A stretch of 32,014 nt of DNA from Spirochaetota bacterium (GCA_025061835.1 JANXAC010000018.1:1-32014), one strand, 5' to 3'. Shown: positions 19,447 to 29,771, numbered from the stretch's first letter. A program made the numbers and translations. The notes: a model not told the origin generated them from the letters alone.

Positions 19447-19466
19447 ATTTTGAAAGGAGGATAGGA

Positions 19467-20798
19467 ATGAGAGTGTTTATCAGTCTATTACTTGTGTTCG
19501 TGTTGTCAGGGGTAGTGCTTTCTCAACCTATCCAGCAACAGGAACAACAAGGATATCAACAGGAGTCTGCACCAAAGTTTGGTTTTGGGTTATCTTTTGG
19601 AACAGTTGTAATAAATGGTGTTACATATTTTCAGGTCAAGGGGCAACCTGATTTTGCCATCGGAAAGTTTGGCGTTGGTCTAGATATAAACCTTGAATTT
19701 GATGCGAACTGGAATATAAGAGCAACTGAATGGAACTCTTGGCAAGCAATCCTTTCAAAGATAAGATACTTAAGGTGGGCTCAAAAGGGTGAGAAACCAG
19801 TATATTTTAAGATAGGACAGATAGACGATGGGAGGATAGGAAATGGTTTTATTATGAATAATTACGATAACAATGTTAATTATCCAAATATAAAAAAGTT
19901 TGGTATAGCTTTTGACATTGACTTAGACTATGGAGGTATAGAGACTTTCGTTGATAATATCTTTGATTTTGACATAATAGGTTTAAGACCATTTGCTAGA
20001 CCATTGTATGGGACTCAAATACCTGTTCTTGATGGGTTTGAGATAGGTGGTTCGGTTGTTATGGACCTTGATCCTCTAAATCCAATTCCTCCGAAGGATT
20101 ACCCGTATCAGTTCTCTGATAGTCCGAATAGCACTAATAGGGTATTTATATTTGGTGTAGATGTTGGATTACCATTGATTCAACTACAGCCAGTGTTCAA
20201 TATGGAATGGTATGCTGATTTTGCGTATATTCTAGGTAAGGGAACCGGTGAAGCGACTGGACTTAAAGGTAGTATATTGTCATTCATACCTTACAACCTT
20301 GAACTTAGGATACTACAGCCTAAGTTCCTTCCTTCGTTTTTTGACTCGTTGTATGATGCGGAGAGATATATAATTATAGGTAATACCTATCTAACAAAGT
20401 ATGACCTATTGGATGGGATAACTAATGGATACTTTGGATGGCTTTTTACATCAGGTGTTAGTTTTGAGAAAATAGCGACTTTTTTGGTAACATTGGAAGA
20501 CTCGTTTGACGATACAACATATCCTAGAATGAGGATAACGCTGAATATAGATAGAGAACTGACTAAGATTGTTGCCTTCAGTTTAGTTTATGATAGGAAA
20601 AACATAGATGAATTTAGGGATATTTATACAACGGAATCAGTAGATGCTATACTTTTGACCAAGATTTCATACAAAGTTTCTGATATGGTTAGTATTGTTC
20701 TATCTTACCGAAGGACTTTTGATTGGTTTGAGGAAGGAGGACAAAAAGTTCTTAAGCCACTTGAGAGCACTTCAGTATCAACTGAAATTTCTTTCTAG
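19467..20798 (+). CDS. Predicted outer-membrane beta-barrel protein (paralogue of the barrel in the next gene)
   Basis: 443 aa from the ATG at 19467. A signal peptide (MRVFISLLLVFVLSGVVLSQ) is followed by a Gln-rich segment (QQQEQQGYQQ) and then a beta-rich chain ending in SFx-type strands with C-terminal Phe (TEISF), the BAM recognition pattern. The family is not recognised. It is clearly paralogous to the C-terminal half of the next gene: GNGFIMNNYDN versus GHGFLMDRYSN, FARPLYGTQIPVL versus FVRPIYGTPVL, and PSFFDSLYDAE versus PSYFDTMYDAQ, in the same order. The next gene starts 9 bp downstream, with its ribosome binding site overlapping this stop, so the two form an operon. A porin-like or envelope-organising role is plausible. 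Confidence 0.75.
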   Translation: MRVFISLLLVFVLSGVVLSQPIQQQEQQGYQQESAPKFGFGLSFGTVVINGVTYFQVKGQPDFAIGKFGVGLDINLEFDANWNIRATEWNSWQAILSKIRYLRWAQKGEKPVYFKIGQIDDGRIGNGFIMNNYDNNVNYPNIKKFGIAFDIDLDYGGIETFVDNIFDFDIIGLRPFARPLYGTQIPVLDGFEIGGSVVMDLDPLNPIPPKDYPYQFSDSPNSTNRVFIFGVDVGLPLIQLQPVFNMEWYADFAYILGKGTGEATGLKGSILSFIPYNLELRILQPKFLPSFFDSLYDAERYIIIGNTYLTKYDLLDGITNGYFGWLFTSGVSFEKIATFLVTLEDSFDDTTYPRMRITLNIDRELTKIVAFSLVYDRKNIDEFRDIYTTESVDAILLTKISYKVSDMVSIVLSYRRTFDWFEEGGQKVLKPLESTSVSTEISF

Positions 20799-20807
20799 GA
20801 GGATTTT

Positions 20808-22892
20808 ATGAGATATTTTACAATCTTTGTGTTAGCACTAATTGTTTCGGTTAGTATTGCATACGCACAATCTGACAAGTATCCTTTTGCTGAAGTAGTT
20901 ATGGGAGATGTTCAATATGCTATATCAGGTGATCAGACAAGACAACCTACGATTTATAAGAATTTGGATTCTGGTGTGACTATACCGTTATACTCTATCG
21001 TCAGAACAGGACCTGATGGTTATGCAGAGATAAAACTAGCACCTAATAAGACTGTGAAAATCTATAATTCTACTACTATATCTCTTTCTAAATTTCAAAC
21101 GGAAAGTACCGTTGATCTTGGGGCAGGTAAGTTGAGAGCTATATTCAAAAGACTCTCACAGTTTGATGAACTTAAAGTAAGAACTGAAACGGGTATTGCT
21201 GCCGTAAGAGGAACTGATTTTGGTATCATTTACAGTAAAGGACAAGGTAATATATCTCTTATGGAGGTGTTTGTAAGGGAAGGGATCGTTCAGCTAACTG
21301 CTGCTAATGGTAGAAGTGTTGAAATAAGGGAAGGTTTTTCTAGCACCATCAATAGCTATCTGGGAACGATTGAAATTGAAGAACCTAAACCTATTCAGTC
21401 ATCTGACTTTGATAGATACTTTTCTGAACCTCAACAGGTTCAACAACAGCCTGCTCAACCCCAACAACTACAACCACAGCAACCTGTCCAGCCGCAGCAG
21501 CCAACTCAGCCACAACAGCAACTACCTCAACAACAAGATTCAGTCCCACCAGATGCTATGCAACCTCAATTCAATTTTGGTTGGGAGATAAGCTCACAGA
21601 ATATAAATGGTTTTGTGTGGAATAAGATAGTTCTTTCACCAATACTAAGAGTTGGTAAGTTTGGGTTTGGATTATATCTGGTCAGCTACTGGGATGGTAA
21701 GAATAATATATACGATACTACAAAATGGTATAACTCTTACGAATACAACTTCGGGTTCAGTAGTGAAGGTTTCTTCATAACGGACTTCCTAGATGACCTT
21801 TTCAAGAAAGTTTTGTTCATAAGTTATGGTACCAAAGGTGAGAGTGTGTTCATCAGAATAGGTAGTATTCCAGATATGACACTAGGACATGGGTTCTTGA
21901 TGGATAGATATTCCAATATGTTAGGTTTTCCTGCGATAAGGAGGATTGGGTTCCAGTTTGACCTAGATTTTGGTTATTGGGGGTTTGAAAGTGCTATAGC
22001 TGACTTATCAAGAAGTAGGTTGTTTGGTGCTAGGACATTCGTAAGACCGATCTATGGAACGCCTGTTCTTGGTAATATAGCGATAGGTATCTCTGGTGTT
22101 GCAGACCTTGAGCCATTCGTTATATCCAACTATGCATACGAAGGTAATCCTACTGTGTTTTTGATCGGTTCTGATATTGACTTTCCTATCGTTGATGTAG
22201 GAGTCTTCTCATTAACTCTTTTTGCTGATATTGGAAAAGCAGGTATATACATAAATAAACTCACAGACAATCCATATCTGTACTTCATAGCACAACAAAA
22301 GAACTATTCAGAAGGGTTCAACCTTCTAAAGGGGGAGGGCTTCTCGGCAGGACTGAAAGGTATGATTGTAGGAATAATTCCTTATAGAATAGAGTATAGG
22401 AGGATAACAGGTCAGTTCATACCTTCCTACTTTGATACAATGTATGACGCTCAAAAAGAACTAAAACTCTTCCTACTAGTAGCATCTGAATTACCACCGT
22501 TTAACGGAATTCTGGGTTCAAGTGGATTCCAGGTCAGTAATATGCTTGACTTTAATATAACATACGAACAACTATGGCCAGAGGAGGATATAAACTTTTC
22601 AATAAACAGACTGATAGGTAGATTTAAGATAACGAAGGATATCGTAAAGACACTGACAGGAATACCTTCATACGCTACTGTCGTATATCAAAGAAATAAT
22701 ATACAGTCTGCTAGAGAATTCTTTGAGGATGTGCTGAGAGACTCATTCGTTACATTAGAGCTTGCCTACAGTATTGATCCAAACACGGATATATCAATAT
22801 CGTACAAAAGGTTTTATGTTTCATCCTTTGAGTATCAGGATAGTGTGTCAATTCAGTTAAAGTCTGCAGTGTTTGGTGAGATAGGAATGTAA
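20808..22892 (+). CDS. FecR-domain protein fused to an outer-membrane-barrel-like domain
   Basis: 694 aa. The signal peptide ends near AYAQ (residue 21). A FecR-type domain (about 25-190) follows, with VRTGPDGYAEIKL, VDLGAGKLRAIF, and VRTETGIAAVRGTDFGI, the FecR hallmark. A Gln/Pro-rich linker (about 207-245) leads to a C-terminal domain of about 445 residues homologous to the preceding gene product. FecR domains in TonB systems relay signals to sigma factors, but in many diderms they occur in secreted or outer-membrane proteins of unknown role. No FecI-type sigma factor is nearby. Unlike its neighbour, it ends EIGM rather than in Phe. AGGAGG precedes the ATG. Confidence 0.8.
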   Translation: MRYFTIFVLALIVSVSIAYAQSDKYPFAEVVMGDVQYAISGDQTRQPTIYKNLDSGVTIPLYSIVRTGPDGYAEIKLAPNKTVKIYNSTTISLSKFQTESTVDLGAGKLRAIFKRLSQFDELKVRTETGIAAVRGTDFGIIYSKGQGNISLMEVFVREGIVQLTAANGRSVEIREGFSSTINSYLGTIEIEEPKPIQSSDFDRYFSEPQQVQQQPAQPQQLQPQQPVQPQQPTQPQQQLPQQQDSVPPDAMQPQFNFGWEISSQNINGFVWNKIVLSPILRVGKFGFGLYLVSYWDGKNNIYDTTKWYNSYEYNFGFSSEGFFITDFLDDLFKKVLFISYGTKGESVFIRIGSIPDMTLGHGFLMDRYSNMLGFPAIRRIGFQFDLDFGYWGFESAIADLSRSRLFGARTFVRPIYGTPVLGNIAIGISGVADLEPFVISNYAYEGNPTVFLIGSDIDFPIVDVGVFSLTLFADIGKAGIYINKLTDNPYLYFIAQQKNYSEGFNLLKGEGFSAGLKGMIVGIIPYRIEYRRITGQFIPSYFDTMYDAQKELKLFLLVASELPPFNGILGSSGFQVSNMLDFNITYEQLWPEEDINFSINRLIGRFKITKDIVKTLTGIPSYATVVYQRNNIQSAREFFEDVLRDSFVTLELAYSIDPNTDISISYKRFYVSSFEYQDSVSIQLKSAVFGEIGM
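21427..21540 (+). repeat. CAA/CAG-rich low-complexity tract encoding a Gln/Pro linker
   Basis: The tract is made of CAA, CAG and CCA-type codons encoding repeats such as QPQQPVQPQQPTQPQQ. It links the FecR domain to the barrel domain and is the sort of tract prone to length variation between strains. Confidence 0.75.
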
Positions 22893-23121: not shown

Positions 23122-24399
23122 TTACCTTTTGTAGGTAGCCTTTATAAGTCCTACTAATTCGTTTTGTCTCTTTTTCCAGATGTCTTTTATTTTTGTATCA
23201 AGTTTTGGGTCATCTGCGTCAAGTCCGGTTGATTCAACTAGAGCACTTGTTGCTGGAGACCAAGTTAGAGCCATTTCAGGAACATTCGGCATAGGTATTG
23301 CTTCTTTCGCTGACTCTATGAATATCTGTGAGATTGGATCGTTTTTGACTTCAGAATATTGGTATGCTCCAACATTAGCTGGTGTTTGCTTACCAACTTT
23401 TGCGAATATTCTACCTGCTTGCGGACTCGTTATGAACTGCATAACCTTGAATGCTGCTTGTTTATTCTTGACATTAGAGGACATAAATATTCCTTCTACC
23501 GTGAGGAATGGTATTGCTCTTCTACCAGAACCTTTTATCCCTGGTAAATCATCTATTATGGGGAATGGTGCAACACCATAATTAATCTTAGGTGATATCT
23601 CTGCTCTAAACCACTGACCATTAACAACAAACAGAGCATTACCTGAATTGAATAATTCTGTAACGGTTGAACCATCTGCACCTACCTCTGCTTTTGGATC
23701 ACCGGTAGGATTTATAAGTTTCTTAAGCCTAAGGACATACTTTATAGAGTTATAAACTGGTTCTGTATCAAGGAGTGGAAAGTATTCGGTTCCTTTTCTT
23801 TTCTCAAATATTCTACCACCATATCCCTGTATCCACATCGTGTGATAGTAGAAGTTGCCCATGTCATACACGAATCCTCTTCTACCATAAGGACCTGATC
23901 TTGGGTCAGTGAATTTCTTTGCGAGTTCTATCAACTCGCTCCAGGTGTTAGGAACGGTTGATATGTAATTTTTGTTATAAAACAGGATCAGGTTCTTGAA
24001 GGACATAGGTAGTGCCCAGAGATTGTCATTATCGCCATAGACATAAGCCATAACCAGATACCTCGGGAATTGAGATATTATCTCTTTGGTTACGAAAGAG
24101 TCAACAGGAACGATGATGTTGTTGTTAGCCCATTCACCTGTAAAGTCTTGTGCGAATATAAACAAGTCTGGACCTTTGCCTAAAGGAACCATTGTCCTCA
24201 GCTTATCGTTTATCGCATCAAACGGCACTGGTAGGAGACTTATCTGGACATCAAAGTAAGTTATGTTGAAGGTATTAGCAACTTGCTCTATTGCCTTCTT
24301 CTCATCACCACGGTAGGCGTGCCATATATTAACCTTCACTTGTCCAAAAACAAATATTGTAAGAGACAGAAATATAAGTGTTGTTATTATTCTATTCAT
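23122..24399 (-). CDS. Sugar ABC transporter substrate-binding protein (MalE-like)
   Basis: 425 aa. A Sec signal peptide (ending VFGQ, no lipobox Cys) points to a soluble periplasmic protein. The solute-binding fold of family 1 is clear: VNIWHAYRGDEKKAIEQVAN, LGKGPDLFIFAQDFTGEWA, WALPMSFKNLILFYNK, NTWSELIELAKKFTDP, GNALFVVNGQWFRAEI, VEGIFMSSNVKNKQAAFKVM and MPNVPEMALTWSPA. The last resembles the MPNIPxMxxxW segment of maltose/maltodextrin-binding proteins, so an alpha-glucan ligand is likely but not proven. The permease and ATPase genes are not adjacent. AGGAGG lies 5 nt before the ATG. The gene diverges from recR. Confidence 0.93.
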   Translation of the reverse strand: MNRIITTLIFLSLTIFVFGQVKVNIWHAYRGDEKKAIEQVANTFNITYFDVQISLLPVPFDAINDKLRTMVPLGKGPDLFIFAQDFTGEWANNNIIVPVDSFVTKEIISQFPRYLVMAYVYGDNDNLWALPMSFKNLILFYNKNYISTVPNTWSELIELAKKFTDPRSGPYGRRGFVYDMGNFYYHTMWIQGYGGRIFEKRKGTEYFPLLDTEPVYNSIKYVLRLKKLINPTGDPKAEVGADGSTVTELFNSGNALFVVNGQWFRAEISPKINYGVAPFPIIDDLPGIKGSGRRAIPFLTVEGIFMSSNVKNKQAAFKVMQFITSPQAGRIFAKVGKQTPANVGAYQYSEVKNDPISQIFIESAKEAIPMPNVPEMALTWSPATSALVESTGLDADDPKLDTKIKDIWKKRQNELVGLIKATYKR

Positions 24400-28244: not shown

Positions 28245-29771
28245 ATGAGGTATTGTGTGAGCATATTTAGTTTTTTTGTTGCGGTTGCGCTTTTCTCTTG
28301 CTCTCAGAACCCGACTGTTCAACAGAATGTTGTGAATGTTAATCAAACAAACCAAATCTTCTCTACAAATTATATCAGCAATACAAACACGGTTTATCAT
28401 ACTAACACGAACTATATAACCAACACAAATACAGTGAATCTCGTTACTAACACAAACTACTACACGAATGTGCATAATCAAACAAACTATGTTTATGGTT
28501 TAACATCAAATGTAAGTTTTTCACTCGTTGGGATAACTGAGTCTGCTATAATTCAACCTTACCATTTAGTTGAAGGAGTTTTGGAAGGTGGCTTTTCGTA
28601 TAATGATGTTGATAAATTCTATCTCATCGTTACTAACAATAGTTTTTCAAACAATTTTCAGTTCTATTCTCTTTCAAATTTCACAGGTGTAATCTCCGCA
28701 CCAAGTCATAATAATATCCATGTTTTGATAACTCTTATATCTAAGTTGAACTCTTCATACACCGTAGGTATAAATCTTAAAATTTCAAACATACCGATAG
28801 TTAAAATAACAAGTATTCAAGGTAGTTATATTGCTACATTTTCGGATACTAATATAAATGGTTATGTTGATATATCTGATCCTGATGGTATAACTAATAT
28901 AAGCGTTATAGTCTCAAATTCATCTGGTGTATTTACAAACACGGCTACTACAAACTTGATTTCATCTTGGACAAATGTTGTGAAGAGAATTCAGTTTTTA
29001 TCAATTCCTAATTTATCTGGTGGATATAACTATGTTAAGGTGAGAGCAGTTTCTTCTAGTGGTATAGTTGGTGAGTCTAGAACGATAACTATTCTCAAGT
29101 CACTTTTCACGATAGATGGTCTCTATGATAGTGGTTGGAATGATGCCAAACTTGTTGCTAGTGCTAGTGGTGTTAATCCTTACACCAATTTGGGAATTGC
29201 TAGGATGAGGGTAACGAATGATGGACATTTCCTATACATATTTGTGAGCAACTATAATGTTCCGAACTTAGGTGATAACGGTTTGAAGTTAAGTATATCA
29301 ATAGACACAAACTCAACTAGTGGTCTTACAAACGATGCGTGGGTTGGACTTGCTCAAAAAGGTAGGTTTATATACATGCCGACAAACGGTAGGTATCCTG
29401 ACATACAGATACAAATGAGGTTGCGACAAACGAATCAAATAAATGGTGCAGGTATATATCTTGCAGTGGTTGGAACTACAAACTTCTGGACAAACATTGC
29501 TAATACCTGGGTACCTGGGAATGATAAGGGAGTTATGTTTGGAATTAATAATGCTTTCGGTTGGGAGGTTGCCTTGCCTCTAGGTTTAGTGGGAATTCAG
29601 AATGGTTCCGTTTTGAGGTTCATAGCAGTTCTTGGAAGACCTGATGGAGATGAAAGAAATAGTGCACTGCATGTTTTACCAGAAAGTCCTTTGAATGAGA
29701 TAACCACAAACGATGGTTTCTTCACGAATGTTATAAGAGTGTGGAGTGATAGTTATACTGTTTCGTATTAA
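28245..29771 (+). CDS. Lipoprotein with Asn/Thr-rich tether and carbohydrate-binding-like C-terminal domain
   Basis: 508 aa. The signal peptide ends in LFSC (Cys19), a lipobox. A low-complexity tether follows (about residues 38-85; TNTNYITNTNTV and variants). The middle region (about 90-280) is beta-rich and unrecognised. The C-terminal part (about 287-508) begins FTIDGLYDSGWNDAKLVAS and continues HFLYIFVSNYNVPN, IDTNSTSG and GWEVALPLGLVG. This pattern resembles the DOMON/CBM9-like domain at the end of some amylases, pullulanases and glucodextranases. The next gene, a lipoprotein glycoside hydrolase, starts 11 bp downstream with its ribosome binding site overlapping this stop, so a surface glucan-binding partner is a reasonable inference. 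Confidence 0.72.
   Translation: MRYCVSIFSFFVAVALFSCSQNPTVQQNVVNVNQTNQIFSTNYISNTNTVYHTNTNYITNTNTVNLVTNTNYYTNVHNQTNYVYGLTSNVSFSLVGITESAIIQPYHLVEGVLEGGFSYNDVDKFYLIVTNNSFSNNFQFYSLSNFTGVISAPSHNNIHVLITLISKLNSSYTVGINLKISNIPIVKITSIQGSYIATFSDTNINGYVDISDPDGITNISVIVSNSSGVFTNTATTNLISSWTNVVKRIQFLSIPNLSGGYNYVKVRAVSSSGIVGESRTITILKSLFTIDGLYDSGWNDAKLVASASGVNPYTNLGIARMRVTNDGHFLYIFVSNYNVPNLGDNGLKLSISIDTNSTSGLTNDAWVGLAQKGRFIYMPTNGRYPDIQIQMRLRQTNQINGAGIYLAVVGTTNFWTNIANTWVPGNDKGVMFGINNAFGWEVALPLGLVGIQNGSVLRFIAVLGRPDGDERNSALHVLPESPLNEITTNDGFFTNVIRVWSDSYTVSY
28356..28499 (+). repeat. Asn/Thr-rich coding repeat (tether) in the first lipoprotein
   Basis: Degenerate repeats of the words ACAAAC, AATACA and TATAT-type codons encode runs of TNTN with spaced Tyr and Val. 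The tract matches in style the one at 29870-30050 in the next gene. Confidence 0.65.

Follow-up and report, generated by a model that had tools for sequence, protein, structure and literature searches.

A phylum-wide pair of predicted outer-membrane barrels in spirochaetes, one carrying a FecR domain, and its genomic tie to an SprA-like giant protein

Two neighbouring genes of a Spirochaetota bacterium, here called A and B, encode two predicted outer-membrane β-barrels, the second of which carries a FecR arm; together they represent an ancient pair that extends throughout the spirochaete phylum and is tied by gene neighbourhood to SprA-like and PorU-like proteins in two phyla. As to what the pair does, we tentatively favour a role as outer-membrane partners of an SprA-like translocon, a reading that draws on gene neighbourhoods and homology. 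The window analysed, 32,014 nucleotides long, is the whole of contig C18 of a 1.8-Mb genome.

Both genes lie on the plus strand. Gene A (19467-20798, 443 residues) starts with the ATG at 19467, preceded by an AGGAGG ribosome-binding site at 19455-19460, and gene B (20808-22892, 694 residues) starts with the ATG at 20808 after an intergenic gap of 9 bp, as given in the preliminary description. Because each gene has an AGGAGG site of its own, and that of B (20797-20802) overlaps the stop codon of A, the two very probably share one transcript. Promoter and terminator scans of the A/B region returned no more than shuffled sequence gave. Elsewhere in the window, a secreted solute-binding protein is encoded at 23122-24399 on the strand opposite to A and B, and an open reading frame of 508 residues at 28245-29771 has no Pfam match.

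Protein A consists of a signal peptide, a short Q-rich N-terminal stretch and a barrel-like chain ending in EISF, and gives no Pfam match with hmmscan. In B, the signal-peptide helix (residues 2-22) is directly followed by a periplasmic domain with a FecR match (PF04773, residues 65-153, positions 21000-21266; hmmscan, 40.7 bits, the cut-off being 24), then by a Gln/Pro-rich linker (residues 200-252, positions 21405-21563) and a C-terminal barrel domain (residues 253-694, positions 21564-22889) ending in EIGM. The FecR domain and the linker are thus confined to B, as had been proposed. The linker is 40% Q and 21% P over residues 200-251 and is predicted to be disordered (pLDDT < 50 at 211-252 in AlphaFold2); it is of low complexity in every B, with a composition that varies from Q/P here to KD repeats or E/P elsewhere. 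The two proteins align over 436 columns at 29% identity (blastp, 159 bits, E 1e-46), and the A and B family profiles match with an hhalign probability of 100 (E 2.7e-74), so that by sequence comparison their paralogy is far beyond chance. The three landmarks read earlier from the sequence do occur in the same order in both, as GNGFIMNNYDN and GHGFLMDRYSN, RPLYGTQIPVL and RPIYGTPVL, and PSFFDSLYDA and PSYFDTMYDA (A and B, respectively), but the consensus offered for the second (RPxYGTxxVL) is approximate, its internal spacing differing by two residues.

Structure prediction of each protein singly gave a barrel fold. The AlphaFold2 model of A is a β-barrel with a pLDDT of 83.4 and a pTM of 0.81 (31 sequences), and the weaker model of B (pLDDT 76.4, pTM 0.56; 13 sequences) has a well-formed FecR domain, a disordered segment at 211-252 and a C-terminal barrel. 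Foldseek found 177 PDB matches for A at E ≤ 0.001, and all 50 of the 50 listed are outer-membrane barrels, with TM-scores of about 0.4 at most among the matches listed; the class is therefore clear, and the topology is one without a close solved relative. A sequence search of the PDB with the A profile returned nothing meaningful. The best structural matches of the B barrel are of the AlgE and OprD types, a likeness in structure only, at low TM-scores and about 10% identity. The FecR part of B resembles the periplasmic domain of PupR (6ovk_R, 3.1 Å over 137 columns) and also a Parabacteroides anti-sigma factor (4m0h), the two matches spanning 3.1-3.5 Å over about 140 columns. Beyond the signal peptide, most members of both families lack any hydrophobic helix, only two Bs reaching a Kyte-Doolittle value of 2 over 19 residues. 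A C-terminal Phe is found in 56 of 60 A homologues and in 46 of 60 B homologues, nearly all of the other Bs ending in another hydrophobic residue. The contrast drawn previously between the terminal Phe of A and the terminal Met of B is accurate as an observation, but the Met is a lineage variant to which no meaning attaches. With a signal peptide, a barrel fold, a hydrophobic or aromatic C-terminus and no later helix, A and B are by prediction outer-membrane β-barrels.

A search across the spirochaetes with the A profile, a check that had been suggested, showed relatives to be present in 132 of the phylum's 393 genomes and in 92 of its 168 genera. The genome studied here has uncultured Spirochaetes and Brevinematales as its closest named relatives and accordingly belongs to a spirochaete of that class. 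Among the loci read, 52, from 27 families, have B after A in the same orientation, at gaps of -89 to 109 bp (mostly 0-33 bp), which bears out the idea of a conserved unit. All partner Bs group in a single clade (support 100/100) in a carefully built tree of 47 barrels, and in a wider but quicker tree (81 rows) 34 of 36 Bs agree with such a clade. When A and B of the window and those of a genus mate were forced together, the resulting recent-duplication topology cost 92 log-likelihood units and was rejected by the AU test (p 6.6e-96). The B clade and this rejection make the duplication older than the phylum's families; the sequences thus describe one ancient A/B duplication whose copies have stood side by side since; of the earlier proposal of gene duplication, the relationship holds and the local tandem event does not. 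Outside the phylum, A relatives occur in Ignavibacteria, Melioribacteraceae and one Chlorobiota bin, and no FecR-barrel partner was found adjoining them in these loci. Since A relatives outside the phylum are bare, the FecR domain may have been gained on the B branch. At two loci (L070, L071) an A-like gene is followed by a larger open reading frame (934 and 778 residues) with a weak B-type barrel and no FecR match, possibly a variant of the pair.

The gene directly upstream of A is, repeatedly across the phylum, that of a giant secreted protein, about 1400-1800 residues long when complete, for which no meaningful match was found in Pfam, NCBIfam or the PDB. Compared with SprA from two ignavibacterial genomes, its profile gave an hhalign probability of 99.9 (E 9.5e-35, 945 columns), against 1.8%, 0.15% and 1.1% for the control profile pairs, and in hmmsearch it retrieved the ignavibacterial SprAs at 8e-45 and 4e-17, while shuffled SprA, reversed SprA and PorU were all absent. 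By these profile comparisons the giant is an SprA homologue over a large part of its chain; a relationship to PorU was considered and discarded (hhalign 1.1%). SprA is the giant translocon of type IX secretion and has so far been described as special to Bacteroidota. The spirochaete giant differs from it in being shorter (about 1400-2000 residues) and in having no Pfam SprA_N match, neither among 13 giant members nor in the genome studied here. Surveys and reviews treat the type IX system as limited to Bacteroidetes (PMC4793230, PMC7463736). A literature search of incomplete coverage found no published report of spirochaete SprA homologues, so that an SprA-like protein in spirochaetes is likely, if not certain, to be new.

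In 21 loci from 14 families the gene that directly precedes A is the SprA-like one, a few of these genes being fragments and the weakest match being that at L065 (E 3.5e-4). The family as a whole is present in 179 of 393 spirochaete genomes, namely in 71 of the 84 with a pair-type A (A match at E ≤ 1e-40) and in 108 of the 309 others (Fisher p 1.5e-16, uncorrected for relatedness). The association has exceptions in both directions: in six families (f10, f15, f18, f21, f24, f28) the pair occurs with no SprA-like protein detected, and many lineages, including f12, f20 and f22, have an SprA-like protein and no pair. Examples are the SprA-like proteins of about 1140-2100 residues encoded at L176:3754-7173 on the minus strand and in G080, G290 and G199 of f22. 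Neither the genome studied here nor any other of its class has an SprA-like gene next to the pair; its own SprA-like protein, of 1894 residues, is encoded on contig C12 (L173:3474-9158, minus strand) and not on C18. That gene adjoins a SNF2 helicase gene, and curated family models miss its product.

A second association is seen in Ignavibacteria, where both SprA and PorV are found: in 15 of 20 loci the gene of the A relative comes just after that of a PorU-like C25 sortase, from which a short T9SS-tail gene sometimes separates it. The SprA-like and the PorU-like linkage both lie outside the window, which is why they had been missed. A is not itself a PorV: profile against profile, hhalign gave 0.45%, and neither A in its own genome nor the ignavibacterial A homologues in theirs are among the proteins matched by the PorV/PorQ model (NF033709). 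In the ignavibacterial loci (L083-L102) two further genes stand close to the A relative and are conserved in 8-10 loci, one of them HAD-type phosphatase-like and the other encoding a 600-residue protein with a phosphodiesterase-like N-terminus and a BamB-like C-terminus.

Gene neighbourhood has to be read with some care, because mutL, as named from sequence motifs, is an equally constant neighbour, found downstream of B in 29 spirochaete loci (L050, L121-L128, L131, L134-L139, L150-L151 and others), and linkage alone is no proof of shared function. This order of an outer-membrane gene and a DNA-repair gene is odd yet very stable. Two other connections were dropped. Chemotaxis genes upstream of the pair are restricted to families f10 and f21, and a link to lipid A disagrees with the presence of the pair in families for which no LpxC was detected, as it does with the absence of the pair from f14, which is nearly always LpxC-positive.

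The only curated model with a meaningful match to A is NF047543, for ImpL63 of Leptospira (hmmscan, 1.2e-11; 44 bits, far short of the 1000 set as the curated cut-off), which the ignavibacterial A relatives match at 1e-20 to 1e-22. ImpL63-type proteins of the phylum are homologous to the A family along the barrel (hhalign 99.7%, E 2.8e-27, 391 columns), but are longer and encoded by single genes with no FecR-barrel neighbour. Although it has a name, the ImpL63 model is functionally uncharacterised. The three ImpL63-type proteins at L067, L068 and L069 have a signal peptide and no later membrane helix, at odds with "cytoplasmic membrane protein" in the model's name, and two of the three end in Phe. 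In Leptospira work ImpL63 serves as an inner-membrane marker, is missing from Triton X-114 outer-membrane extracts and is poorly labelled at the surface (PMC2698987, PMC2780356). The predicted barrel fold of the related A does not fit the inner-membrane label and so puts it in doubt; judging from homology, an outer-membrane barrel held by the cell wall would likewise remain with the protoplasmic cylinder, as ImpL63 does.

In the role that we tentatively favour, A and B would together make up an ancient outer-membrane unit of spirochaetes, as its two subunits, exported by Sec and then presumably inserted by BAM as β-barrels, A as a plain barrel and B as its paralogue, with a flexible linker joining the FecR domain to it in the periplasm. 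Encoded by a common transcript, the two would most likely function jointly, perhaps in a hetero-complex, and would serve as accessory barrels of the SprA-like giant, itself distantly related to the type IX pore. In SprA of Bacteroidota, PorV docks on the lateral opening, which Plug seals (PMC10994853). A and B may dock on or gate the SprA-like pore in roughly the same way, and the FecR domain may act as a periplasmic docking or tethering arm; binding of A to B, service to the pore and this role of the FecR domain are all inferred. What the spirochaete arrangement has in common with SprA-PorV and SprA-Plug is a giant SprA homologue encoded beside smaller outer-membrane barrels, although by profile A and B are unlike PorV.

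A different reading, possible if doubtful, makes A and B an ordinary pair of porins or substrate channels in which the FecR domain serves only to anchor B, either to the cell wall or to some partner in the periplasm, much as OmpA-type domains do for other proteins, and treats the SprA-like linkage as a matter of common outer-membrane housekeeping with no function in common. The top Foldseek matches, to general and substrate-specific porins and AlgE, fit such channels, but the similarity to any single porin is weak (TM-scores of about 0.5 at most). A secreted sugar-type solute-binding protein, encoded at 23122-24399 in the window, stands beside the pair in seven loci from two families of the class, on a side that varies among them, whereas no transporter was found as a constant neighbour outside the class among the loci surveyed. 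The six families that have the pair and lack a detected SprA-like protein speak for a porin pair, which does not account for A having SprA-like and PorU-like neighbours in two phyla. Distinctly less probable is an envelope tether, in which the FecR domain would grip peptidoglycan or another periplasmic structure and hold the outer membrane around the periplasmic flagella. Every B has a FecR domain and a long flexible linker, and the absence of the ImpL63 kin from the detergent-extracted outer membrane would fit cell-wall attachment (PMC2698987, PMC2780356). Against such a tether, A has no periplasmic domain, the ImpL63 relatives have no FecR domain, and no peptidoglycan-binding motif was found. 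To our knowledge, FecR domains are not established as peptidoglycan binders.

It is very improbable that B instead regulates an ECF sigma factor in the manner of FecR, with a receptor barrel of its own as part of the same chain. The PF04773 match and the structural match to PupR connect B with the cell-surface signalling regulators FecR and PupR, but, unlike these, B is exported whole on a signal peptide, is fused to a barrel, has no fecI neighbour and contains neither a cytoplasmic anti-sigma part nor an internal membrane helix. The genome encodes four FecR proteins, B included, and no ECF sigma gene or TonB-dependent receptor was found near any of their genes, sigma matches lying on contigs C1, C2, C4 and C23 and receptor matches on C4, C1 and C27; the surmise that the pair is not tied to TonB/FecI signalling is therefore upheld. 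The other three FecR proteins resemble membrane-anchored or exported envelope proteins: one (L109, G000:C17:27577-27876) is membrane-anchored, with more than 730 residues and a repeat-rich, propeller-like C-terminal part, and L108 and L111 are two further envelope proteins. The closest NCBIfam matches of the FecR part of B are the models for Leptospira LipL45, Lsa33 and Lsa19, which have no barrel and whose cut-offs B falls far short of. As for a recent local tandem duplication in one lineage, of no wider meaning, the adjacency of two paralogues would agree with it, but the tree, the AU test and the same pair in 27 families rule it out almost entirely.

The outer membranes and secretion routes of spirochaetes are poorly understood. 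A wider reading, which at present we consider unlikely, is that the phylum has SprA-based translocation of its own, apart from type IX secretion of Bacteroidota, with A and B in place of PorV and Plug, and that ImpL63 belongs to the same family of outer-membrane barrels. The kinship with ImpL63 puts at stake the fractionation control of Leptospira work, and an SprA-like giant of such wide occurrence, often clustered with the barrel pair, makes an SprA-based spirochaete translocon directly testable.
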